This document shows, one piece after another, positions 21,739 to 61,956 of a stretch of 64,000 nt of DNA. The stretch spans positions 124,001-188,000 of the forward strand of contig NZ_JAGTJJ010000017.1 of NCBI RefSeq assembly GCF_028435365.1, given 5' to 3'. The position numbers and the translations under genes were made by a program. Source of the stretch: Polyangium jinanense (GTDB lineage Bacteria > Myxococcota > Polyangia > Polyangiales > Polyangiaceae). Numbering within the stretch: position 1 is the first letter of the stretch; each line of letters starts with the position of its first letter. The notes under the pieces are model-generated. The model ran no database searches and was not told the origin of the DNA. It saw nothing but the letters and a program-made list of their open reading frames with translations.

Positions 21739-21758
21739 TCGCTCGCTGTCCCGTCGCG

Positions 21759-22055
21759 CCGGGGCTCTGCCCCGGGCCCCGCGGGGGCTGTTCGCCCCTC
21801 GACCCGAACCAGGGCAAGCCCTGGACCATTTGGGGAAGAACTGCGCGATGCGCAGTTCTTCCCACAGGCCCGTGGCAAGACCAGAGACAGCGTTGCCAGT
21901 CACGGCGGTCTTGGTTGGCAGGGCCTTCGTTGGTCTTGACCTGGCCTGTTCGATGAACTGCGCATCGCGCAGTTCATCGACCCCGAGTCCAGCGCTTGCG
22001 CTGGTCCGGGTCCAGGGGCGGACAGCCCCTGGTGGGGCCTGGGGCAAAGCCCCAG
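21759..22055. repeat. bipartite eight-hairpin element, full copy A
   Basis: Two arms of about 105 bp in inverted orientation flank an 86-bp spacer. Each arm is a row of four hairpins. Left arm: CCGGGGC stem with TCT loop (21759-21775), GGGGC/GCCCC with TGTTC loop (21784-21798), CCAGGGC/GCCCTGG with AA loop (21809-21824), and a perfect 14-bp stem with GAT loop (21833-21863). The right arm repeats the series in mirror order (21950-21980, 21989-22004, 22012-22032, 22039-22055). The element fills the space between two convergent genes. It is the same element as at 61552-61849, in the opposite orientation. No gene is seen in it. Confidence 0.88.
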
Positions 22056-22082
22056 TGCAGCGGCTTCGACACGAGACAGCCG

Positions 22083-23348
22083 TCAGATCCCCAGCATCCA
22101 GATCGTTCCATCCCGACAAGCTGCCACCAGCTTGTCATCGCCTGCTGGCTGGATCGCCACCGGCGCTGCGCATAGCTTCTCGCTCACGAGCGCCACGTTC
22201 CCATCTGGCCGCGCCACCCCGACGCGCCCGTTTTGCCGCGCGAACGCCACGCGCCCCTCTGCGTCCACGATCATCGCTGGGCTCGGCCGTGCATCGGCTG
22301 GCGCGTTGAAAAATCCTGTCGCCGCTGCCGTCCCGGCCGGCGCCGCCGGATCTGGGGCCGCCGGCTGCGCCCCCTTGTCGAGCACCATCCGCAGCCGCTC
22401 GTTGCCTGCTGCGTCCACCCCGAAGAGCAGTCCCGTCGACGTCGAAAACATCGCGAACCCCCGCGGGTGGATCGTCACCGGCTCGTCGTACGTCCCGAGC
22501 CCCACGTCGCCGGCCCGCACGTGCGTGAGCCCCGTCTTGAGGTCGAGCCCCACGAGGGTCTTGCCGTTCACCACTGCGAGCAGCGTCCGCCCGCCTTCGA
22601 GCGCTGCTCCGCGCCGCAGCGGCCCGCCGAACGTCCCGACCTTCTTTGGCGGGTTCGGCGGCCGGAACACGTAGACACCGCCGGCCTCGCCCGTTGCGAT
22701 CGTCCCTTCTGGACCCTCGATCAGCGCCCCCACCGCACGCTCCGGCAAGCTTGCCCGCGCCCGCACCCCGCCGTTCGCGTCGAGCTCCACGAGTGCCCGT
22801 CCCCCGACGACCACGCTTCCGTCCGAACGCGCGAGCGGCGCCACGTCGAGATCGCGGCCTCGTTGCCCGAGCGGCGTCGCGAACTGCACCCGACCGTCCC
22901 GCCCGAGGCCTACCGCCGCGCCCGCGCTCGTCACGAGCAGGATCGTCCCGTCGCTCGTCAGCACGGGCGGCGCGATGGCTGGCGCGCTGCCGAGCCGCGT
23001 CCGCCACACCTCCTTGCCGTCCGGCGAATACGCGACCACCTCCGGCACCGTCAGCGCCGTGTAGATCCGCCCCGTCTCGTCCACGACCGGCGGCACCTCG
23101 ATCGTCCCGCCGAGGTGCCTCCGCCACTTGTCGACCGGCGGAAACGGCAGCCTCGATCGACTCTGCCCCGTGCGCCGCGCGTCCACTCGCTCGCTTGGCG
23201 CGTGCCCGCGCGGCGGACCTACGACCACCGTGTACGGCCGCGTCGTGTCGATGCCTTCCGCGTGCGCGATCTCCGGCGCCGGCTGCGCGCAAAACCCTGC
23301 CACCACGGCGAGGGCTGCCCCGAGGCGCGACGGTGTCTTCATGCTCAT
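22083..23348 (-). CDS. secreted PQQ-like beta-propeller protein
   Basis: ATG at 23348 overlaps the stop of the upstream gene (ATGA), so translation is coupled; a second ATG is two codons later. The protein has 421 residues. A signal peptide ends near AHA-EG at residue 31. The rest is a run of about seven blade-like repeats, each with strands and a turn: VVDETGRIYTALTV, YSPDGKEVWRTRLG, LTSDGTILLVTSAG, RSDGSVVVGGRAL, GPEGTIATGEAGGVYV, and so on to the end (CRDGTIWMLGI). No catalytic residues were recognised. It probably scaffolds or binds in the periplasm together with the membrane protein encoded upstream. Confidence 0.85.
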   Translation of the reverse strand: MSMKTPSRLGAALAVVAGFCAQPAPEIAHAEGIDTTRPYTVVVGPPRGHAPSERVDARRTGQSRSRLPFPPVDKWRRHLGGTIEVPPVVDETGRIYTALTVPEVVAYSPDGKEVWRTRLGSAPAIAPPVLTSDGTILLVTSAGAAVGLGRDGRVQFATPLGQRGRDLDVAPLARSDGSVVVGGRALVELDANGGVRARASLPERAVGALIEGPEGTIATGEAGGVYVFRPPNPPKKVGTFGGPLRRGAALEGGRTLLAVVNGKTLVGLDLKTGLTHVRAGDVGLGTYDEPVTIHPRGFAMFSTSTGLLFGVDAAGNERLRMVLDKGAQPAAPDPAAPAGTAAATGFFNAPADARPSPAMIVDAEGRVAFARQNGRVGVARPDGNVALVSEKLCAAPVAIQPAGDDKLVAACRDGTIWMLGI

Positions 23349-25201: not shown

Positions 25202-25262
25202 CAGGGCGGATACTACCGTGGAAGCTCGCCAGGGGAAGCCCCCCCTGGCCTGGGCCGTCGCG

Positions 25263-25367
25263 CCGGGGCGCTGCCCCGGGCCCCGCGGGGGCTGTTCGCC
25301 CCTCGACCCGAACCAGGGCAAGCCCTGGACTCGGGGTGGAAGAACTGCGCGATGCGCAGTTCTTCCA
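25263..25367. repeat. bipartite hairpin element, half copy B
   Basis: A single arm of 105 bp carries the four hairpins in order: 25263-25279, 25288-25302, 25313-25328 (CCAGGGC/GCCCTGG) and a perfect 14-bp stem TGGAAGAACTGCGC with GAT loop at 25337-25367. The following about 60 bp resemble a diverged spacer of the full element, and no second arm is present. It lies just upstream of the zinc-ribbon gene. Confidence 0.85.
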
Positions 25368-25401
25368 ACGGGCCGGTGGGACGGTGTTGCTGAGCGCAGT
25401 G

Positions 25402-25795
25402 GCAGCGCGGCTGTCTGGTCGTGTCAATCGAGTGCGAACGCCTGCGCGGTCGTCCTTGCATCGGCGCGAAGGCGCCCGGGACACGTGCACAGCGCGGGGT
25501 GCGCCGGAGCCAATGGGGCCGTGACGACGTGAGCAGCGCCCCTGCGTCGATGCAAGCGCGGATAGGAACACGTCAGGGCGACGCTGGGACGCGCGCAAGT
25601 GCTCCCGCGCCGCGTGCTCGGCGTCCGTTGAACGCGTGCAAGGCACGCGGCGCAGGTCGTTTGGAGCGCCTTGCACGCGTGGAACACCCACCGAGCAGCC
25701 GCCATCGGGCGATTCGCACGCGCGCAAGGCGCGTCGTGCTGGCCGCGTGGTCCAAGGCACGACCGTCCGTCCGTCCGACTCGGTGACGAGCGCGC
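25402..25795. other. non-coding stretch with a long inverted repeat
   Basis: No convincing gene is seen in about 390 bp. It holds a 13-bp perfect inverted repeat, ACGCGTGCAAGGC at 25632-25644 and its complement at 25668-25680, separated by 23 bp, and several further GCGTGCAAGGC- or CGCGCAAGGCGCG-like words (for example near 25715). The stretch lies between hairpin element B and the 3' end of the small zinc-finger gene, so it may be the remains of repeats or a structured untranslated region. Confidence 0.5.
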
Positions 25796-26056
25796 TCACG
25801 TGCCTGTCGAAAGATCCCCGGGCACGCGGGCAGCGCGCGCGGCCCAGGAGGATCTCGCGAGGTCGTGGGGGTCATTGCCCTCGACCAACGCGGCGCAGTC
25901 CGCCACGCAGGTGTCGCAGAGGAAGATGCCCTTGGGCCCTTTGATCAGCTTCTTCACGCTCGCTTGCGGGAGGTCGCAGAACGAGCACGCGACGTCCGCA
26001 TGGCGTGAGCCACGACGAACGTCCGGGATGATGTGTGCTAGCCTCGAGCTATCCAT
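25796..26056 (-). CDS. stand-alone ClpX-type C4 zinc-finger protein
   Basis: ATG at 26056 gives 86 residues. Residues 22-60 match the N-terminal zinc-binding domain of ClpX: Cys24, Cys27, Cys47 and Cys50, with CSFCDLPQASVKKLIKGPKG followed by IFLCDTCV. The AAA+ motor is absent. In ClpX this domain dimerises and recruits substrates or adaptors, so a free copy could act as an adaptor or decoy for ClpXP. It is divergent from the TPR-CHAT protease gene (95 bp between the starts), an arrangement suggesting common regulation. The start could be earlier, but the zinc finger is in the shortest form already. Confidence 0.75.
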   Translation of the reverse strand: MDSSRLAHIIPDVRRGSRHADVACSFCDLPQASVKKLIKGPKGIFLCDTCVADCAALVEGNDPHDLARSSWAARAARVPGDLSTGT

Positions 26057-26151
26057 TGTCGAGGGGGGCGCGTCGTCTCGCGTTACGAGGATGCAAGCGG
26101 CGCGTGGGCGCACACGTTCGACGGCGCATGCAATCATCGAGGAATGCACGC

Positions 26152-27021
26152 ATGGAAATCCTTTTCGATGCAGACGTGCTGAACGAATTCGAAACGCTTC
26201 ACGATGAGGCCATCAAGTTGACCGCCGCAGGAAACGTAGGCGCCGCCATTCCCATGATCCAGCTTGGCCTATCCATTCTCGAAAACACCTTTGGGCCGGA
26301 GCCTCTTCAGGTGGCGTATGCACTGAAGAACGCCGCGGATCATTACGACAATCAGCACGCAGACCACCGGGCGAATTTGCTCTATCAACACGCGATCCTC
26401 CTCGTTGAAAAAGCAACGGGACCGGACAGTCCGGAGATGTTCTCGTGGCTGACTCATTTGGCCAGGCGGTACAGATCACGCGGAGATCATCGGGCCGCAG
26501 AACCATTGCTCGCCCGCGCGATTCAATGTATGGCGCGAGGTGCGGACCCGGAAGATCCCATTGGCAGCGGCTTCGGATGGGCCATCGAAGAAGGTCAGCT
26601 GCTCCACGCAGAAGCGGCCAAGCTCCGTGATCGAGATCATTATGATGCAGCCATTTTTCTCGCAAAAAGCGCACGCACATTGCTGGAGAATGGCTTCGGA
26701 GGCCCCTCTGACTTGTCTTCGACATCGAGTTACATCCTGGGAACGACGTACGCGCGAAAGAAAGACTACCCCAACGCCGAACTGGAGCTCCGACGCGCGA
26801 TTGTCAGTGGCGAAAAATTGTTGTCACCACACCATCTCACATTGGCCACTCCGCTCCAGGATCTTGCAAGACTGTATGCCGCAAAGGAAGACTACGCCCA
26901 AGCCGAAGCACATTACGCAAGAGCCATCGACATCTTGAAAAAGACGTGTGGACCCAACGACCCTCGCGTTGGGATGGCGCTCGATCGATTTGCGGAAATG
27001 TACTTCCTGAAAAACGATTAA
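26152..27021 (+). CDS. TPR-rich N-terminal part of a TPR-CHAT gene, ended by in-frame stop
   Basis: ATG at 26152 follows GAGGA nine bases upstream. The 289 residues are tetratricopeptide repeats of the kinesin-light-chain type (YAQAEAHYARAIDILKKTCGPNDPRVGMAL). The frame stops at TAA 27019-27021 in the middle of a repeat: the expected pattern D-Y-A-K-A-E reads D-stop-A-K-A-E. Reading continues in the same frame without another stop to the CHAT protease at 29571, so a single substitution (TAT/TAC to TAA) explains the break. G+C is clearly lower than in neighbours, suggesting transfer. It is either a recently broken gene, a split gene, or a sequencing error. Confidence 0.8.
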   Translation: MEILFDADVLNEFETLHDEAIKLTAAGNVGAAIPMIQLGLSILENTFGPEPLQVAYALKNAADHYDNQHADHRANLLYQHAILLVEKATGPDSPEMFSWLTHLARRYRSRGDHRAAEPLLARAIQCMARGADPEDPIGSGFGWAIEEGQLLHAEAAKLRDRDHYDAAIFLAKSARTLLENGFGGPSDLSSTSSYILGTTYARKKDYPNAELELRRAIVSGEKLLSPHHLTLATPLQDLARLYAAKEDYAQAEAHYARAIDILKKTCGPNDPRVGMALDRFAEMYFLKND

Positions 27022-27138
27022 GCCAAAGCCGAATCGCTGTGCCGGGAGGCGCTCGCCATCCTCGAACGAGCGCTGGGACCAAACCATGCCCTTGTTGCGA
27101 AGCTATCCTTCCAGATCGGGGTATTGCGCGAATTTCAG

Positions 27139-29571
27139 ATGGATTCCACCTGGACCCAGTTGCGCTACGAGCTCGCGCTGTCCACGATGGAGAAAGCGGT
27201 CGGTCGCGATCATCCCGCGGTGGCGTCCATGCTCGACCGCATGGCAATCGTCAAGACCAACGAAGGACATTACGACCATGCCATTTCGTTGGCTCGACGA
27301 GCAATTGCCACACGACAAGCAGCATTCGGAATGAGCCATCCGGGCATCACGGACTCACTCCTCGTATTGGCTGACATTCAAAACCAAAAGGGAGACTTCG
27401 ACGAGGTAGAGCGTCTTTGTCGGCGGGTCATCGACATCAACGAAAAGACAACGGAAGCGTGCCATCCCGGTGTATCGCACGCCATGAACCTTCTCGCGGA
27501 TCTCTTGCTCCGCCGAAAGAAAGACTTCGATGCTGCGGAGGCACTTTTTCAGCGCTCGCTGGCCATGACCGTGGAGACATTTGGAGCAGACAACCCCGAC
27601 GTTGCGATTTCGTGGAACAACCTCGCCATGCTTTACAGTTACAAGAAGCAATTTTCGAAGGCCGAGGAATATTTTTTCCAGGCGCTGACCATTGGCGAAA
27701 GAGCACTCGGGGCGGGGCATCTGCAAGTGGCCGTTCTTCTCCGCAATCTCGCGACGATGTATATCGTCTGGGGCAAGCCGGAACATGCCGTGAAACACCT
27801 CGCACGGACGGTGCACACAGAAGATCGGCATATTGCGATGCGTTTGACCGTCGGGTCGGAGGAGCAAAAGCGGAAGCACATGAACCTCCTCTGGCGCTCG
27901 ACGAACGACGCCATTTCACTTGTCGCCCACGACGCCCCCAACGCCTCGCAATCGAAGGAACTCGCTCTTCGGACCATTTTAAATCGTAAAGGTCGAGTGC
28001 TCGATACGATGACCGACAACTTCTCCACGCTGCGCCGATTCTTGACGACGGCGGATGGCAAGCTGTTCGAGCGCCTGCAGCGCGTCTGCGCGGAGCATTT
28101 CGCCCTCGTGTGGCGCGGATCCATCCGTCCGCCCAAGGTCGAAGACCTGTTGGCCCGCGCGCGTCTCGATCAAGAACGGCAACAACTCGAAATCGCCATG
28201 AGTCATCGGTGCGGCGAGCTGCGGGGCGAGCTGCAACCGGTGACGATTGAGCAAGTGCAAGCTGCAATCCCCGAAGGTGCAGCGCTCGTGGAGCTATTCC
28301 TCTATGTACCCGTCGTTCATGATACCGACGAATTCAAACCCGGTCGTTATGTTGCCTATGTGCTACTTCGCGATGGCGCGATTTCCTGGGTGGACCTCGG
28401 CGAATCCGATGCCATTCACAAGCTGACCGTGGAGTTTCTCGCGGCACTTCGACGACCCACGCCGACGACGCGCGAATTCGGTGATGTCGACACTGCCATT
28501 GCGGAGCATCGCACAGCGGCCCGAACGCTCGATGCTCTCATCATGCAACCCATCCGGCGTTTGCTCGGCCCAATTCGTAAGATTCTCTTGAGTCCCGATG
28601 CCTTGCTGAACATCGTGCCGTTTGGTGCGCTCATCGATGAAGATGGTCGCTACGTCATCGAAAATTACGAATTAAATTACTTGGCAAGTGGCCGCGATCT
28701 CTTACGCCTTGCGGACCACTTCCAATCGCGCCAAGGTCCCGTCGTCATTGCCGCCCCCGATTACGAACATATCACGCCCATTGCTCCGGATGCGCAGGAG
28801 AGCGTCGCGCGGGACCCTACTCGTGATGCGCTGCGTGGGTTGTCTTTCCGTCCGCTTCGCTTTGCCGCGCAAGAAGGTCGCGCGATTGCACGAAAGATCG
28901 ACGGTTCCACGTTGCTGATGGGAGAGGCGGCCACCAAAGGCGCCTTGATGAAGGTAGCCGGGCCAAAGCTGCTCCACATTGCGACGCATGGCTTTTTTCT
29001 GCAGGGCCCATCGACGCAGGAAGCGCCCTCGCCATTCGATGAGGGTTTGTTCGGTTTTGATCGCCCCACGCATTTCAAATCGAACGTGGACAACCCGCTC
29101 TTGCGTTCGGGCATCGCGCTCGCTGGTGCAAATCGCGGGCACGAGAATCAGGCGCTCGGCATTCTGACGGCGTTCGAGGTTTCGCAACTCGACCTGCTGG
29201 GGACGAAGCTCGTGATATTGTCGGCGTGCAAAACGGGCCTGGGTGAAATCGCCAGCGGTGAAGGTGTCTATGGATTGCGTCGAGCCCTCAGCATTGCCGG
29301 CGCGGAGACGCAGGTCATGAGTCTATGGAGCGTGGATGATGCGGCGACGTGTGAATTGATGGAGGCTTATTACGACAAGTTGCTTGCGGGGGAGGGGCGC
29401 GTAGAAGCCTTGCGTCGAGCCCAGCTCGAAATGCTAGGCCACCCTGATCTCGCGCATCCGTATTACTGGGCTTGCTTCATTGCGTCGGGAAATGATGCGC
29501 CCCTCCGCTCATCTGCGGAGACCGTTGACGAGGGGGGCCGCCCTGACTCGGCCTCTAGCGAGCGTCGCTGA
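27139..29571 (+). CDS. TPR-CHAT caspase-like protease, C-terminal part
   Basis: After the stop at 27019 the same frame stays open. First ATG is 27139 (810 residues); a TTG at 27124 is possible; neither has a good binding site. TPR repeats continue over the first 240 residues (YSYKKQFSKAEEYFFQALTIGERAL). The C-terminal CHAT peptidase carries the dyad His (HIATHGFF, codon at 28987) and Cys (LSACKTGLG, codon at 29227), and ends with the family's VMSLWSVDDAAT and HPYYWACFI. CHAT proteases are caspase relatives; TPR-CHAT proteins act in bacterial defence or regulated death, for example as gRAMP partners, but no CRISPR is seen here. If not expressed as one chain, activity is doubtful. Confidence 0.85.
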   Translation: MDSTWTQLRYELALSTMEKAVGRDHPAVASMLDRMAIVKTNEGHYDHAISLARRAIATRQAAFGMSHPGITDSLLVLADIQNQKGDFDEVERLCRRVIDINEKTTEACHPGVSHAMNLLADLLLRRKKDFDAAEALFQRSLAMTVETFGADNPDVAISWNNLAMLYSYKKQFSKAEEYFFQALTIGERALGAGHLQVAVLLRNLATMYIVWGKPEHAVKHLARTVHTEDRHIAMRLTVGSEEQKRKHMNLLWRSTNDAISLVAHDAPNASQSKELALRTILNRKGRVLDTMTDNFSTLRRFLTTADGKLFERLQRVCAEHFALVWRGSIRPPKVEDLLARARLDQERQQLEIAMSHRCGELRGELQPVTIEQVQAAIPEGAALVELFLYVPVVHDTDEFKPGRYVAYVLLRDGAISWVDLGESDAIHKLTVEFLAALRRPTPTTREFGDVDTAIAEHRTAARTLDALIMQPIRRLLGPIRKILLSPDALLNIVPFGALIDEDGRYVIENYELNYLASGRDLLRLADHFQSRQGPVVIAAPDYEHITPIAPDAQESVARDPTRDALRGLSFRPLRFAAQEGRAIARKIDGSTLLMGEAATKGALMKVAGPKLLHIATHGFFLQGPSTQEAPSPFDEGLFGFDRPTHFKSNVDNPLLRSGIALAGANRGHENQALGILTAFEVSQLDLLGTKLVILSACKTGLGEIASGEGVYGLRRALSIAGAETQVMSLWSVDDAATCELMEAYYDKLLAGEGRVEALRRAQLEMLGHPDLAHPYYWACFIASGNDAPLRSSAETVDEGGRPDSASSERR

Positions 29572-30556
29572 CCGCGGCGGGCTCGGCGCGCACCATTTTT
29601 GCAAAGTGCGTATCGAGCCAGCGCTCGGCCTCCGCGAGATCGGGCGTGCTGCGAAACGCCTCGGCGCGCTTGAGCACGTCGATGAGCAGCTTCTCTTCGT
29701 GGACGGGGTAGGCCAGAGACAGCTCTCCGTGCGCGAGGTGCGTTTCCCAGCGGGCGCGCACCGCGGCCCAGAACGCGGCGGTCTCCTTCCAGTAGCGCTG
29801 AGCCGCGCTGAGCGGATCGTCGATGCGGGTGTACTCGTTGAAGCCGAATTCCCGAACCAGCGGGCGCTCGACACCGTCGCGGCGGATGACCTTGGTGTTG
29901 TCCTGCTCGTGGGTCCAGCCCAGCGGCGTGATGGTGTGCCGGTTCTCGGCGACAATCAGATCGTAGTCTTTGCGCTTGGAATACTCGCGGCGCGGGAGCG
30001 GGCGCAGCGTCGTCTCCGAGGTCCAGGTCGACGAGCTCTTCTGATGCACCCAGGTGCCGCTGCCGGCATAACGTGGCGCATCGTTGACTTCGTAGACGAG
30101 CTGGGTCCACGTGCCTGCGCGTTCCTGCTCGCTGCGCGTGCGCCGGTCGAACCGCTGCGCGCCGAGGAACCGGAAGTGATCAGGCGCCTCGTAAACCCAC
30201 ACCTGGCGCCAGTGCTTCACCACCATGCCCGCGGGAAGCACCAAGAGGTGCTGGAGCTCGATGCGTCGCGGCTCGTCGCTCACCACCACCACGGCCTCCG
30301 TGCCGGTCACGTCCTTCGAGGGGCGCGGGAGGTAGCCCGGCTCGAGGAGCGTTGTCTCGTCGAAGTGGAACGACACGCGGTAGCTGCCGGCCATCGAGAG
30401 GATCGCGCGGCGGTCGCAGTCGAAGGCAGCAACGCCCGGGCCGCACCAGGCCTCGGTGCGGGGGACTCCATGGGCGAGCCGCTCGGCTCGCGAGCTCCCT
30501 GCATGTCCACATCCCACGAGCATCGTCGTCGCCAGAGCCAGAGCCACAGTGCGCAT
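29555..30556 (-). CDS. DUF6607-like lipoprotein
   Basis: ATG at 30556 gives 333 residues; the signal peptide ends in LVGC (lipobox). The sequence matches, from memory, the DUF6607 pattern: SYRVSFHFDETTLLEPGY, then VVKHWRQVWVYE, RPLPRREYSKRKDYD, NRHTITPLGWTHEQDN, and the final AAFWAAVRARWE. Function of the family is unknown; members often accompany iron or heme uptake genes. Here the next gene in the same direction upstream is a siderophore-interacting flavoprotein, with hairpin repeat C between them. The 3' end overlaps the CHAT gene by 17 bp. Confidence 0.8.
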   Translation of the reverse strand: MRTVALALATTMLVGCGHAGSSRAERLAHGVPRTEAWCGPGVAAFDCDRRAILSMAGSYRVSFHFDETTLLEPGYLPRPSKDVTGTEAVVVVSDEPRRIELQHLLVLPAGMVVKHWRQVWVYEAPDHFRFLGAQRFDRRTRSEQERAGTWTQLVYEVNDAPRYAGSGTWVHQKSSSTWTSETTLRPLPRREYSKRKDYDLIVAENRHTITPLGWTHEQDNTKVIRRDGVERPLVREFGFNEYTRIDDPLSAAQRYWKETAAFWAAVRARWETHLAHGELSLAYPVHEEKLLIDVLKRAEAFRSTPDLAEAERWLDTHFAKMVRAEPAAVSDAR

Positions 30557-30639
30557 GCGGAGGCTCGTAGATGAAGTTGCTAATGAAAGTCAATATCTAT
30601 GAAGGGCACCGCACGAAACGAACGCGCGCAGCCTTTCGC

Positions 30640-30788
30640 CGCTGCGATTGGCAACGCCGTCTCTGGTCTTGCCACCGGCCCGTTCGATGAACTGCGCATC
30701 GCGCAGTTCATCGACCACGAGTCCAGCGCTTGCGCTGGTTCGGGTCGAGGGGCGAACAGCCCCCGCGGGGTCCGGGGCGGCGCCCCGG
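30640..30788. repeat. bipartite hairpin element, half copy C
   Basis: About 45 bp of the element's spacer (GGCAACGCCGTCTCTGG, then TCTTGCCACC) is followed by one arm of 105 bp in right-hand orientation: a 14-bp stem TCGATGAACTGCGC with ATC loop (30684-30714), CCAGCGC/GCGCTGG (30723-30738), GGGGC/GCCCC (30749-30763) and CCGGGGC/GCCCCGG (30772-30788). It lies between two minus-strand genes. Stems one and two are of one full-copy type, stems three and four of the other, so it is mosaic. Confidence 0.85.
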
Positions 30789-30814
30789 CGCGGCGGCGGC
30801 CCCAAAAAGAGACG

Positions 30815-57659: not shown

Positions 57660-60600
57660 TCAATCGAACTCGACGTCGAGCTCGTCCGGCATATCCACGA
57701 GCCACGGCAATCGGGCGATCCCCGCCTCGTCGCAGAGCTCGTCGAGCTCGACCTCGGTCCCGTCGTCGAGCACGAGGTCGCCGCGCACGTAATACCGAAG
57801 CCCCCAGGAGAGCGGTTTTTCGCGGCTCTCCGGGCGCTCGGCGAGCTCGCACAAGAGCTTCCGGTCCTCGGGCGTCGACATGCGCGCCACGTGCCGCGCG
57901 AGCGCCGGCCAGAGCGGGTCGATTCCTTCCGGCAGCTCCGCGAGCGCACGGCGAAAAGGCATCGATTCCGAACGCGGACGCAAGGACAGGCGGCATGCCT
58001 CGTGGAACAGGCGCAGGAGTGGATCCTTCGGCTCCGAGAACGCGAGCACCGCGCGTGTCCCGGCCCGGCCGATCCCCGCGAGCTCCGCGGCCGCGAAATC
58101 GAGCGTCCACGGCTCCTCGGGCAATTCGAGCTCGTGCGCCCAGACCCAGGCCATGTCGAGCACCCAATCTTGCGCCCAGTCCCGCGCCCAGTAGCGCGAC
58201 AGATCAAACGCCCAGTCCCGCGCCAGATCCCGCGTCCAGTACCGCGCCAGATAACGCGCCCAGTACCGCGCCAGATCGAGCGCGAAATCCCGCGCCCATT
58301 CCCGCGCCCACGAGCGCGACAGATCCATCGCCCAGTCCCGCGCGAGGTCGAGCGCCCACGTGCGCACCCAGTCGTCGTGCGCCGCTTCCTTCGCCCACGA
58401 CCGCGCCAGATACCGCGCCATGTACCGCGCCAGATCCCGCTCCTCCCGCTCCGGCACGAGCGCCCGCCGGGCCGCGCGCCCGAGGTGCTCGCGTTTGCCG
58501 CCGAGCGAGATCAACGTCTGCAATCGCGCCGCCGCGGGACCCCGCGGACCCGGCCACAAATGGAGCAGCGAGAGCTCCGGCGGATCGCCCGGCCAAACCG
58601 GGCTCGACCCGCCGAGCGCCCGACCACGCGCCACGCCTTGCCCCTCGCCCGCCGCCGAAAGCAATCGCGACATCGCCGGCGGCTCCGCCTCCTCGCGCCC
58701 GAGCCGCGCCTCCTGCCACCACGACGCCGCAATGACCCCAGGCAGCCATCGCGCCTGCGACGCCACCTCTGGCCACGCCGCCGCGAGCCGCTGCCGCCGC
58801 CCCTCCTGCCGGCTCGCCGCCCACGCCCGCGCGGCCGCGAACCCGCGCACCTGCTCGTGCACGTGGAAATGGGCCGAGAGCCGCGCGCACCACGCCTCGA
58901 AATGCCCCGCGCCGAGCCCGTCCGCGAACATCACGCCCGCGAGCCAGAACCCGTCCGCGTCTCCCTCGATGAGATTCTCCAGCACCGCCGCGAGATGCGC
59001 GGGATTCCGGTCCTCCACGACCGCCGCCCACAGCCTGAGCGTCTCCCAGAACGCAAGATCGTGCAAATACCGCCGGCAAAGCGCGACCCGCGCCTCCGCC
59101 CCCTCCACCACCGCGGCCCAATGGTGCGCCACGAGGTATTCCTGGAAGCTCAGGTGCGCAAACGAAAAGGTCTCGTCGGCGCGATCCACGAGCACGCCCG
59201 CCGAGGAGACCAGCCACGCGATGAACCCGCGTCGCTCCTCGTACGAGAAGCGCGAGGGCAAGAGCGCGCAAAGCTCGTCCTCCGTGCGTACGATCGGGCT
59301 CCGGCTCTGCTCGCGATAGCCATCGCGCTGCACCCGATCGGCGAGCTCCGCGAGCACACGCATCCGCTCGGCTGCGTCCTCGGGCCGGAACACCGCCGAC
59401 GGCGCCCGCGCCCCCTCCGCCTCCTTCGCACGCGGCCGGGCCGAAAGCAGGTTGTCGAGGCAAATCCGGTATAGCTCGTGCCGTTTGTCCGGGAGCGGCC
59501 TCGACCGGTGCACGAAAAGCATCATCACGAGCAGGAGCGCCGTCCGCGCGAGTGCCTCGGCCTCGGCGCTCGACGCGAGGGCCGAGACGAAGCGCTCGCT
59601 CGCGGCGTGGGCGGACGCCTCGTCCTCGCCGTGCACGCGCCCGTGGAAGCGCGTCGCGAACGCCCGGATCTCCTCGTCCGAGAGCGGCTGCACGTCGAGC
59701 ACGTCGAACCCCTCGGCGCCCGAAGGCCGGCTCTCGCCATAAGGACGGCTCGTCACGACCGCGAGCACGCGCGGCGACGTGCCGAGCAGGCCCATCAATT
59801 TCTCGCGCACCTCGTCCCCGAGATCGCCGAGCTCGTCCCAGCCGTCAACCAGCAGAATGGGCCGCGGCCCCGTGGGATCGTCGAAGAGCACGGCGAGCGT
59901 CTTTCGTTCGTCGCGCCCGCGCACCTCGGCGAGGCGCCCCGCGAGATAGGCTTCGAGCGTCCGCTCGCTCGGCACCGCCCGCTCCCATGCGCGCCCGAGC
60001 TCGCGGAGCTCGATCAAAAACGGGACACAGTTCTTTTCGCCCTCGGCGAGCAGCTTGCGGAAACAATGGCGCAGGATCGTGGTCTTTCCGCAGCCGGCCG
60101 GGCCCCGAATGACGAGCGGCGTTTCGCGCGTGGCAAGCGCGAAGGGCTCGAGCGGCGCGCCATCGTCGAGCCGGTCCGCGTCCGTATTCGTCCCGAGCCT
60201 CGGCGGCACGAACATCTCGTCGAGCCGCGAAGGCACGGGCGGCCCTCCCCCGCTCGGCTGCGTCACGCCCACGCCACCGAGGTCCCAGCGCACATAACGT
60301 GCGCCGAACCGCCGGCGATACGCCTCGACGAACGCCGAAACCTCGACGGCCTCGGACGGCGTGACGATCTGTTTTTCCTCGCCAAACCCTTTCGGCACGT
60401 ACAGATCGAGCGTGGCGCCGCGCGGGCTCGCCGGATCCACCGCAAAGGTCCCCGGCTCGACCTGCCCCTCGGCGCGGACGCGCGGCGCGTAGATCCGCAG
60501 GATCGACCGCGCTTGCCGCCGGGCCGGATCGAGCTCCAGCAGGTGCACCATCGCCGGCTGGCTCTCGGGCAGCTTCCCGGGCGAAAGCCCCCAGCTCCCG

Positions 60601-61502
60601 GACGAGAGCACGAGCGTGTGCCCCTTCTCCCCGCGCCGGAACGGGAATGCATGGGCATCGGCGCCGTGATGATGTCCGTGCAGGACCACGGAGACCCGCG
60701 CGTCCTCGGTCACGGCGCGCAGGTGCTCCTTGCCCTCGAAGCCGGCAGCGTCGGCGGCGAAATGCTCGATCGTCTCGGGCTTGAGCGGACCGGGGTGGCC
60801 GCGCAGCCATTGCACCCAGCTCTCCACGGCCTCCGGCACGGGCGTGATCGGATTGTGGTGCACGGCGAGGATCGACATCCACGACGGGGGCAAACCGCGC
60901 AGATGATCGAGCAAGCGCTGAGCTTGCGCCTCGCCGAACGATCCGCCCTGCCGCGCGTGGGACTCGCGCTCGCAGGAGTTCAAGGCGGCGACGGCGATCC
61001 CGCCATCCGGCATGGCGAAATGGTGGACGACGGCGCCATGGCCGATCGAGGTCACGGTCGGCAGCTCGGCGCGCGGGCGCCCGTGGAACGCCGTCACGAA
61101 CGCTTCGAATCGCGCGAGGCGCACGAGAGCGAGGCGGCGTTCGAGCTCGGCATCGTCGAACCCCTCGTCTTCCTGCTCGATCTGGACCTTGCGTGTCTCG
61201 GCCCAGGAGACATCGTGGTTTCCAGGGACGAACACGAATCGATCCCGCGGGACACGAAGAAGCGCATCGAGGTGCCCAAAAAACCCGAGCGCGGCCTCGT
61301 ATTCGTTCTTGCGCGCCGCCTCGGCGATGTCACCCGTGACCACGACGAGCCCCACGCCCTGCCGAATGCCAAGCTCCTCGCGCGCGGCGTCGATCGCGGC
61401 AGCGAAGCGCGCAGCGAGCCGCTCGCCATCCTGGCCCCCGAAGCGACCATGCGGGCCGAAATGCAGGTCCGAGAGGTGGAGGACGAGGAGCGGGAAGGAC
61501 AC
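57660..61502 (-). CDS. metallophosphoesterase-NACHT (STAND) protein with tryptophan tetrad repeats
   Basis: GTG at 61502 gives 1280 residues. The N-terminal metallophosphoesterase is complete: SDLH at 11-14, GD at 57-58, GNHD at 94-97, VHHN at 214-217, GHHH at 276-279. A linker is followed by a NACHT NTPase: Walker A GPAGCGKTT at 467-475 (Lys473), Walker B PILLVDGWDE at 548-557 and the winged-helix motif FAHLSFQEYLVA at 781-792. Residues 800-1010 are helical. Residues 1024-1122 are tetrapeptide repeats with Trp, Leu or Phe every fourth position, then a final domain (about 1125-1280). NACHT proteins act as bacterial NLRs in phage defence; an enzyme at the N terminus would be the effector, the C terminus the sensor. 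A hairpin repeat element lies immediately upstream. Function is inferred. Confidence 0.93.
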   Translation of the reverse strand: MSFPLLVLHLSDLHFGPHGRFGGQDGERLAARFAAAIDAAREELGIRQGVGLVVVTGDIAEAARKNEYEAALGFFGHLDALLRVPRDRFVFVPGNHDVSWAETRKVQIEQEDEGFDDAELERRLALVRLARFEAFVTAFHGRPRAELPTVTSIGHGAVVHHFAMPDGGIAVAALNSCERESHARQGGSFGEAQAQRLLDHLRGLPPSWMSILAVHHNPITPVPEAVESWVQWLRGHPGPLKPETIEHFAADAAGFEGKEHLRAVTEDARVSVVLHGHHHGADAHAFPFRRGEKGHTLVLSSGSWGLSPGKLPESQPAMVHLLELDPARRQARSILRIYAPRVRAEGQVEPGTFAVDPASPRGATLDLYVPKGFGEEKQIVTPSEAVEVSAFVEAYRRRFGARYVRWDLGGVGVTQPSGGGPPVPSRLDEMFVPPRLGTNTDADRLDDGAPLEPFALATRETPLVIRGPAGCGKTTILRHCFRKLLAEGEKNCVPFLIELRELGRAWERAVPSERTLEAYLAGRLAEVRGRDERKTLAVLFDDPTGPRPILLVDGWDELGDLGDEVREKLMGLLGTSPRVLAVVTSRPYGESRPSGAEGFDVLDVQPLSDEEIRAFATRFHGRVHGEDEASAHAASERFVSALASSAEAEALARTALLLVMMLFVHRSRPLPDKRHELYRICLDNLLSARPRAKEAEGARAPSAVFRPEDAAERMRVLAELADRVQRDGYREQSRSPIVRTEDELCALLPSRFSYEERRGFIAWLVSSAGVLVDRADETFSFAHLSFQEYLVAHHWAAVVEGAEARVALCRRYLHDLAFWETLRLWAAVVEDRNPAHLAAVLENLIEGDADGFWLAGVMFADGLGAGHFEAWCARLSAHFHVHEQVRGFAAARAWAASRQEGRRQRLAAAWPEVASQARWLPGVIAASWWQEARLGREEAEPPAMSRLLSAAGEGQGVARGRALGGSSPVWPGDPPELSLLHLWPGPRGPAAARLQTLISLGGKREHLGRAARRALVPEREERDLARYMARYLARSWAKEAAHDDWVRTWALDLARDWAMDLSRSWAREWARDFALDLARYWARYLARYWTRDLARDWAFDLSRYWARDWAQDWVLDMAWVWAHELELPEEPWTLDFAAAELAGIGRAGTRAVLAFSEPKDPLLRLFHEACRLSLRPRSESMPFRRALAELPEGIDPLWPALARHVARMSTPEDRKLLCELAERPESREKPLSWGLRYYVRGDLVLDDGTEVELDELCDEAGIARLPWLVDMPDELDVEFD
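58137..58433 (-). repeat. 12-bp degenerate repeat coding for Trp/Leu-Ala-x-Asp/Tyr tetrapeptides
   Basis: Within the NACHT gene about 24 consecutive units of 12 bp encode LARD/WALD/LARY/WARY/WTRD-type tetrapeptides (residues 1024-1122). One single-residue register slip occurs near residue 1044. Trp occurs at many of the lattice positions, for example 1049, 1057, 1065, 1069, 1081, 1089, 1097 and 1105. The DNA is repetitive too (CGCGCCAGAT and CGCGCCCAGT words), so slippage can change unit number. Confidence 0.85.
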
Positions 61503-61551
61503 GTCGAGGGAGCATACCGGAAGTGGGGCGTGGCATGAAGACGGCGCTGCG

Positions 61552-61849
61552 CTGGGGCTTTGCCCCAGGCCCCAGCAGGGGCTGTCCGCCCCTGCACCCG
61601 GACCAGCGAAAGCGCTGGACTCGGGGTCGATGAACTGCGCGATGCGCAGTTCATCGAACGGGCAGAGTCAAGACCAACGACGAGCCTGCCCGCCAAGACA
61701 GCAGCGCTGACGTTTCAACCGGCAACGGGGTACCACCGGCCTGTTGGAAGAACTGCGCATCGCGCAGTTCTTCCACGAACGGTCCAGGGCTTGCCCTGGT
61801 TCGGGTCGAGGGGCGAACAGCCCCCGCGGGGTCCGGGGCAGCGCCCCGG
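61552..61849. repeat. bipartite eight-hairpin element, full copy D
   Basis: Two arms of about 105 bp in inverted orientation flank an 87-bp spacer. Left arm: CTGGGGC/GCCCCAG (61552-61568), CAGGGGC/GCCCCTG (61576-61594), CCAGCG/CGCTGG (61603-61618), 14-bp stem TCGATGAACTGCGC with GAT loop (61627-61657). Right arm: TGGAAGAACTGCGC stem with ATC loop (61745-61775), CCAGGGC/GCCCTGG (61784-61799), GGGGC/GCCCC (61810-61824), CCGGGGC/GCCCCGG (61833-61849). It lies upstream of the NACHT gene. The remaining 107 bp to the next start hold nothing recognised. Confidence 0.88.
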
Positions 61850-61956
61850 CGCAGCGGCTCGGTGTGGGAGTTTGTCGGAGGATCCGGGGGCGTACACTGC
61901 GCGTCAGAAACGGATTGCGGAGGTGGGTTTTTCCAGGTACGAGTTTGACCAGGAAC

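Follow-up and report, generated by a model that had tools for sequence, protein, structure and literature searches.

Insertion sequences of the Tn5 and Tn10 kind generate 9-bp target duplications and have CTGA-type ends. REPINs, doublets of repetitive extragenic palindromic (REP) sequences that form hairpins, are listed among the commonest bacterial repeat families in the relevant passages of PMC8049555, and they are explained by REP-associated tyrosine transposases (RAYTs). Here we analyze a repeat element in 64,000 nucleotides of Polyangium jinanense (contig NZ_JAGTJJ010000017.1, positions 124,001 to 188,000), a stretch referred to as the window throughout. Its layout is that of a REPIN, but the ends are common to it and a Tn5-like insertion sequence. 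We favor the view, with a probability of roughly 0.7, that it is a high-copy, non-autonomous miniature inverted-repeat transposable element (MITE) of an IS4-family, Tn5-like insertion sequence, carrying REPIN-like four-hairpin arms inside.

The element consists of a partly self-complementary spacer between two inverted arms. The arms differ in type, and each carries four hairpins in a row (h1 to h4, about 105 bp). The first-pass annotation of the window had recognized two full copies in opposite orientation, and reverse-complemented copy A indeed aligns with copy D at 87.8% identity over 311 columns. The arms of A and D (101 and 100 nt, 79% complementary) exceed all other inverted repeats of the window in length, the next of 39 inverted-repeat pairs with arms no more than 400 bases apart measuring 29 nt. 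Four hairpins with small loops, as first read, are present in all six arms of the window (loops of 3, 5, 2-4 and 3 nt), and the spacer length given holds for copy A at 86 bp. Other parts of that reading needed revision. While both full copies had been located, the single-arm copies B and C had been overlooked; and the arms, correctly described as inverted, differ in type, which makes the element directional.

The element is real, mobile and present in high copy number, and among the genomes searched it is confined to Polyangium and close kin. Genome-wide counts refer to the genomes of relatives, the source organism being represented by the window. A scan of the contig collection for the 21-base h4 hairpin returned at least 120 stretches; among the matches listed, 118 lie in four Polyangium genomes (P. 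fumosum DSM 14668, sp. 15x6, sp. y55x31 and sp. 6x1; G001-G004), while two in unrelated metagenome-assembled genomes (L092, L093) were dismissed as chance matches without a hairpin array. Across the four complete sets of contigs, exact h4 hairpins number 345, 148, 132 and 243 and the backward pattern 0, which excludes chance. A wider h1-h2 pattern, again with no backward match, finds 549, 361, 277 and 407 arms in G001-G004, 238 in G060, 51 in G018 and 1 in G070. Exact h4 is present in 6 of 98 genomes of the family sample. The covariance model matches at E <= 1e-5 in 7 of 96 family genomes, and in the other 89 no match was found at this threshold with filters that lose weak matches. The single arm of G070 (L244:159-292, 55.9 bits) is diverged and retains all four hairpins, no other copy being found there by pattern. 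In the phylum sample, the h1-h2 module occurs in 5 of 188 genomes, 283 times in P. fumosum and once or twice in the four others. No match to the element was found in plasmids or phages. The arm profile was built on 204 arms with exact h4, and the set of 273 arms used below required a score of at least 60 bits and the h1 pattern; L092, L093 and matches below 35 bits were left out before units, placement and ends were counted.

Contiguous stretches, part of which were picked for their known copies, contain 29 elements: 21 are head-to-head pairs with h4 on the inner side, seven are single, one is direct and none is tail-to-tail. Over all loci, 299 arms are paired and 41 single, two inverted units around a spacer being the common form, as in REPINs. 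The h4 types combine as A with T in 86 of 99 elements, giving the different unit types in alternating orientation known from bacterial interspersed mosaic elements (BIMEs), T with T in seven, A with A in one and otherwise in five. Units of the known kind are of another size, and in E. coli they flank the RAYT. By h1-h4 type, CA/CA and TT/TT were never seen, about 15 of each being expected by a hand calculation from the marginals (105 and 108 of 273). The element spreads as a directional unit.

Comparison of orthologous junctions provided insight into its mobility. At site A, between a histidine kinase gene and a convergent gene, the window holds 344-346 bp between matched flanks where G003 has 2 bases and G002 has 1 base. 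The real element is therefore longer than the interval from 21759 to 22055 first assigned to it. In G001 both contigs end inside the element at this site, assembly breaks that are due to the element itself. Site B carries one arm in G001 and no element in G002 and G003, and no arm was found in the corresponding stretch of G004. Site C lacks the element between the same two genes in G002, where they reside on another contig. At site D, G001 has two arms in flipped orientation and G004 has one, with none in G002, G003 and G060. At three further sites (idx9, idx11, idx33), one genome carries the element and others do not. Insertion is a simpler explanation than repeated exact loss; at any single site, loss is possible.

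Complete copies of about 365 bp terminate in CTGAGCAT(K)GGTCTCAT, a motif found outside h1 in some arms and first read as TGAGCAT(K)GGTCTCAT. In several genomes, copies have the end at the same distance from h1. GGTCTC occurs at -32 to -10 in 31 of the 273 arms and at -60 to -38 in none. The end motif matched 45 times in four genomes, a backward control not at all. An arm lies within 200 bp at 25 of the 30 end-motif loci examined (at L305 with weak matches only) and is missing at five. Two loci, L285 and L302, resemble deletion derivatives consisting of outer parts and one hairpin, and L296 and L298 are orthologous to each other. On contig 1 of G060 (13.2 Mb), which does not start at dnaA, the end motifs are restricted to 1.3-8.4 Mb, and the first 1.3 Mb contain no arms, about 23 of the 238 being expected there.

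Among the loci examined, the resident insertion sequence with the same ends is whole in one genome, G004 (L286). It encodes a 443-aa transposase that reaches 241 bits against the IS4-family profile NF033590 (cut-off 160) and matches the Tn5 transposase with an E value of 3.4e-23. Its ends, CTGAGCACTGGTCTCAT and CTGAGCATTGGTCTCAT, are located at positions 15 and 1517, with 16 of 17 positions identical, and AACCAGGGC stands on both sides as a 9-bp target duplication. The target lies within a linker and h3 of an element arm. Related transposase sequence is present at L249 (G060, 83% across residues 2-395, truncated at the locus boundary), L308 (G060), L145 and L014 (both G002). At all five loci holding transposase sequence, the end of the insertion sequence adjoins or lies in element arm sequence; three of the five (L249, L145 and L014) were collected on account of their arms, which leaves L286 and L308 as the unbiased cases. 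L308 contains a 1033-bp unit (1499-2531) with an arm behind one end and a 3' transposase piece behind the other, and looks as though the hairpin element had become fused to an insertion sequence.

Target duplications also accompany two copies of the hairpin element itself. Flanks match at nine of nine positions for L299 (G018), a complete 365-bp element with both arms, and for L284 (G060), which measures 1011 bp and has an arm at each end; both have the terminal inverted repeats of a MITE. Shuffled flanks yielded 0.15 duplications on average and two at most. Note that the end used for this count of 2 in 13 candidate pairs is one base longer and was chosen after the flanks had been seen, the shorter end giving 0 of 11. 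By eye, the target sites of L286, L299 and L284 are all inverted repeats, formed by h3 of the arm in the first and by stem-loops in the other two. The dispersed MITE-, BIME- or REP-like element proposed at the outset is upheld by these two copies with ends and duplications, by the many copies, by the element-free junctions and by a canonical bipartite unit. Copies far exceed the two originally noticed, and the hairpins are conserved.

In the scheme that we favor, the transposase would act in trans on the shared ends and would prefer hairpins as targets. Copies would consequently accumulate in the arms of other copies and in terminator-like hairpins downstream of genes. Those without recognizable ends, A and D included, would be older or trimmed, and the kept hairpins might, as a weaker part of the scheme, provide both neighboring genes with a structured 3' end. 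A bolder version, which we put forward tentatively and consider doubtful, is a self-feeding pair: a Tn5-like insertion sequence that aims at hairpins would be coupled with a hairpin-array element of the same ends, which offers eight landing hairpins per copy and furnishes structured gene 3' ends. In that case, what preserves the hairpins would be their use as targets or gene ends and not a role in the transposition ends.

Several observations weigh against the MITE interpretation. Among the loci examined, the transposase is whole only in G004 and nearly whole in G060 (L249), with pieces in G002 and G060. No 9-bp duplication accompanies 11 of the 13 candidate end pairs, one of which is a false pairing inside L286. 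Even a loose end motif is missing from 248 of the 299 paired arms and present in 51. Copy A has no matching end on its left side and site A no 9-bp duplication. The hairpins are far better conserved than the ends that a Tn5-like transposase would need, and shared ends alone leave this conservation unaccounted for. Finally, copies at shared sites are mostly flipped between species. Seven sites are occupied in more than one species, most of which came to light because copies were the reason for retrieving both loci. Judged by arm type, six of the seven show a flip between at least two species; judged by alignment, 11 of 14 species pairs are in opposite orientation, the two methods differing at idx64. 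Repeated insertion into the same hairpin, in-place inversion or conversion would each fit.

These flips, together with h4 loops that occur as reverse-complement pairs, speak for the rival view that copies are rewritten mainly by recombination or template switching between them, through in-place inversion and conversion. We consider this very unlikely. Crossing over inside arms should produce chimeric TA-type arms, and just 3 of the 273 are of this kind. Moreover, insertion at junctions of 1-2 bases would be left unexplained. Similarity at shared sites exceeds the background median in 11 of the 14 pairs, so that some descent is visible; it is the highest of all in one pair alone (idx24, G001-G003, same orientation), the remaining pairs lying at percentiles 0.43-0.97 of a background that leaves out 9 of 157 elements without a genome label.

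The conservation of the hairpins is evident from whole-pair exchanges. In the 273 arms, h1 pair 2 is C-G in 158 and T-A in 112, and one h4 pair is T-A in 157 and A-T in 109. The way arms were selected accounts for part of the constancy seen in the h4 core and most h1 pairs; the h1 pattern leaves the two sides of the variable h1 pairs untied. Stem cells are Watson-Crick paired in 8110 of 8163 cases, with 51 mismatches and two G-T pairs, a count that omits the basal h2 pair 39-55, where G-T is frequent (103 cells). Diversity per site amounts to 0.123 within stems and 0.241 outside. In an alignment of 64 arms, 96.8% of 2226 cells are paired and 15 of 35 pairs changed on both sides. The cells with two-sided change number 146, compared with 41.0 (sd 9.2) in shuffles, none of 500 shuffles reaching 146. 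When partners are slid by one to three columns, pairing falls to 33-47%. Folding of arm on arm is the predicted energy minimum and was nevertheless rejected as the conserved structure: the local stems of 99 bipartite elements are preserved in 5707 of 5728 cells (99.6%), whereas the arms match each other in 78.4% of columns. The h4 loop triplets fall into reverse-complement pairs (GAT 171 and ATC 12, GAA 11 and TTC 6, TCC 33 and GGA 1), as if the loop could flip.

Conservation that lies in hairpins and not in ends is a feature expected if the element were REPIN-like and another nuclease or transposase recognized its hairpins as single-stranded DNA, the ends of the insertion sequence having been acquired by some copies only. 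The doublets, the compensatory change and the placement between genes all match what the relevant passages of PMC3116915 and PMC3733652 report for REPINs and REPs. We nonetheless regard such an origin as improbable. A RAYT had been suggested as a helper in the first-pass annotation, and the profile NF047646 scored above its cut-off in none of the six host genomes, with any match at E <= 0.001 in three. The Y1 domain (PF01797) occurs in two of four genomes, and around these two genes (L221, L222, L235-L237) no arm above 25 bits was found, the closest being a 22-bit partial match in L222. Profile and locus searches thus leave a RAYT or Y1 helper unsupported, and a cognate RAYT flanked by the units, as in REPINs, was not found in them. 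In addition, the constant distance between end and h1 in several genomes is expected of an original part of the element.

Most copies lie a short distance behind stop codons. With gene calls from our own caller and elements with less than 1.5 kb of flank omitted, 59 of 101 elements are situated between convergent genes, 31 between tandem and 10 between divergent genes, one being unclassified, against 225 convergent, 727 tandem and 204 divergent background junctions. None of the 101 lies inside a called gene, and with 51-549 arms per genome in six genomes the repeat is extragenic and of high copy number, as REPINs are. In 650 kb made up of the window, the stretches orthologous to A and D and six reverse transcriptase loci, 7 of 75 convergent, 6 of 288 tandem and 3 of 68 divergent junctions are occupied. 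Of arms facing a gene 3' end, 170 of 191 start within 60 bp of the stop codon, compared with 5 of 68 that face a 5' end; a part of these stops may be supplied by the TGA in the end of the element itself. REPs have the same placement according to the pertinent part of PMC3733652.

Copies behind stop codons and between convergent genes, combined with compensatory change, could also point to a structured RNA or 3'-end element, for instance a bidirectional terminator or stabilizer, that is selected for its effect on expression and whose spread is secondary. This too appears very improbable to us. A run of four T within 20 nt on the outer exit side, as in intrinsic terminators, follows none of the 273 arms, and such a run follows h4 in 10. 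G-T pairs are nearly absent from the stems, an observation that could also be explained by an inverted unit read from both strands. Orthologous junctions are often without the element. Furthermore, a hairpin-seeking transposase landing in terminators would yield the same placement.

A retron was considered as another source of the repeat. Arms are found at the convergent 3' junction of a type XIII retron reverse transcriptase gene in six of six genomes (L322-L327): four arms in G002 and G060, three in G004 and one in the rest, with partial arms in G018 and G003. The enzyme is assigned to RT_XIII in all six, its SWIM and HEAT-ARM partners were checked in G002, and the neighbor across the junction has a YkuD domain in the two cases tested. 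A second reverse transcriptase, likewise closest to RT_XIII with a lower score, has arms in none of the six genomes; further matches were checked at part of their loci. Upstream of the retron gene, 353-356 bp are very conserved and predicted to form long hairpins, without an Rfam match; this region is probably the retron RNA. As a source of the repeat this region was rejected, the best E value of the comparison being 0.72. Orthologous reverse transcriptases occur in element-free genomes, nine such loci having no arm match, and ends are intact equally often on both arm types (25/137 and 23/130). The link was noticed after the fact in genomes that are not independent of one another.

The coordinates of all copies in the window are compiled below. 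Rfam models gave no match at gathering score in the window or in six loci.

Table 1. Copies of the hairpin element in the window and their parts.
Feature	Coordinates	Strand	Basis
Copy A, left arm (A-type) with outer flank and start of spacer	21745..21880	+	covariance model R1, 137.9 bits
Copy A, left arm, h1	21759..21775	+	sequence; helix 1, 100% of cells paired in 64 arms
Copy A, left arm, h2	21783..21799	+	sequence; helix 2, 88.7% of cells paired
Copy A, left arm, h3	21809..21824	+	sequence; helix 3, 98.9% of cells paired
Copy A, left arm, h4	21833..21863	+	sequence; helix 4, 99.0% of cells paired
Copy A, spacer, partly self-complementary	21864..21949	.	lies between h4 hairpins
Copy A, right arm (T-type), inverted	21933..22069	-	covariance model R1, 159.3 bits
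Copy A, possible diverged terminal repeat, CTGA first when read inward	22068..22086	-	by-eye comparison with other ends
Copy A, approximate extra DNA relative to G003 and G002 junctions (1-2 bases there)	21739..22084	.	junction comparison
Copy B, single A-type arm, then half a spacer to ~25416	25249..25384	+	covariance model R1, 133.3 bits
Copy C, single arm (T at h4), half a spacer from ~30639	30667..30802	-	covariance model R1, 133.7 bits
Copy D, left arm (T-type)	61538..61674	+	covariance model R1, 156.2 bits; sequence
Copy D, left arm hairpins	h1 61552-61568, h2 61575-61595, h3 61603-61618, h4 61628-61656	+	sequence
Copy D, spacer	61657..61744	.	between h4 hairpins
Copy D, right arm (A-type), inverted	61728..61863	-	covariance model R1, 136 bits

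The single-arm copies B and C face each other with their spacer halves (25254-30808) and flank a stretch of low GC content, 56-59% at 26-29 kb, that includes a TPR-CHAT gene (27124-29571). Possibly the two are one element split by inserted DNA; counter to this, C lies between two genes that are adjacent in G002. Beside copy D, a gene on the minus strand (57660-61502) joins a calcineurin-like phosphoesterase to a NACHT domain. In other genomes, long copies have 0.5-0.9 kb between their arms (L280, L284, L292 and L300 in G060; L218 and L219 in G004; L220 in G002), several of them filled with short direct repeats by eye. As no gene was called between their arms, they were rejected as autonomous elements.

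The first-pass annotation had stated that no element of this form was described. This is true of the four-hairpin arm, for which we found no description in the open-access literature searched, and does not extend to inverted REP doublets, heterodimers and placement between convergent genes, all of which appear in the pertinent parts of PMC3116915 and PMC3733652. If the relationship to the Tn5-like insertion sequence holds, there would be a second, cut-and-paste route for the origin and spread of hairpin repeats, and the hairpins would be kept for some reason other than end recognition. This is testable with hundreds of copies in several species and with occupied and empty orthologous junctions.

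The REPINs of Pseudomonas fluorescens, as presented in the relevant sections of PMC3116915, resemble the Polyangium element in forming inverted doublets with a spacer, in having many extragenic copies and singlet remnants and in showing compensatory changes. They differ in consisting of short single palindromes that go with a RAYT, whereas the Polyangium arms have four hairpins and RAYT matches stay below the cut-off; instead of one palindrome of 20-40 bp, each arm spans about 105 bp. GTAG- and CGTC-tagged REPs share with it head-to-head dimers, heterodimers and a position between convergent genes no more than 20 bp from either 3' end, while the units dealt with in that part of PMC3733652 are 20-40 bp long and bear a fixed tag. 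No such unit-end tag characterizes the Polyangium arms: near h1, GTAG is found in 21 of 273, CGTC in 47 and neither in 205. ISPpu9 in the REP sequences of Pseudomonas putida is a similar case of an insertion sequence sitting in host palindromic repeats; the sections of PMC8450116 that bear on it do not mention ends common to the repeat and the insertion sequence. The MITEs of IS4-family insertion sequences of the IS50/Tn5 type, like the element described here, are non-coding, share their ends with a resident insertion sequence and are flanked by a 9-bp duplication where one is present. What sets the Polyangium element apart from them is its interior, a conserved and covarying row of eight hairpins, and the fact that most of its copies are without recognizable ends.
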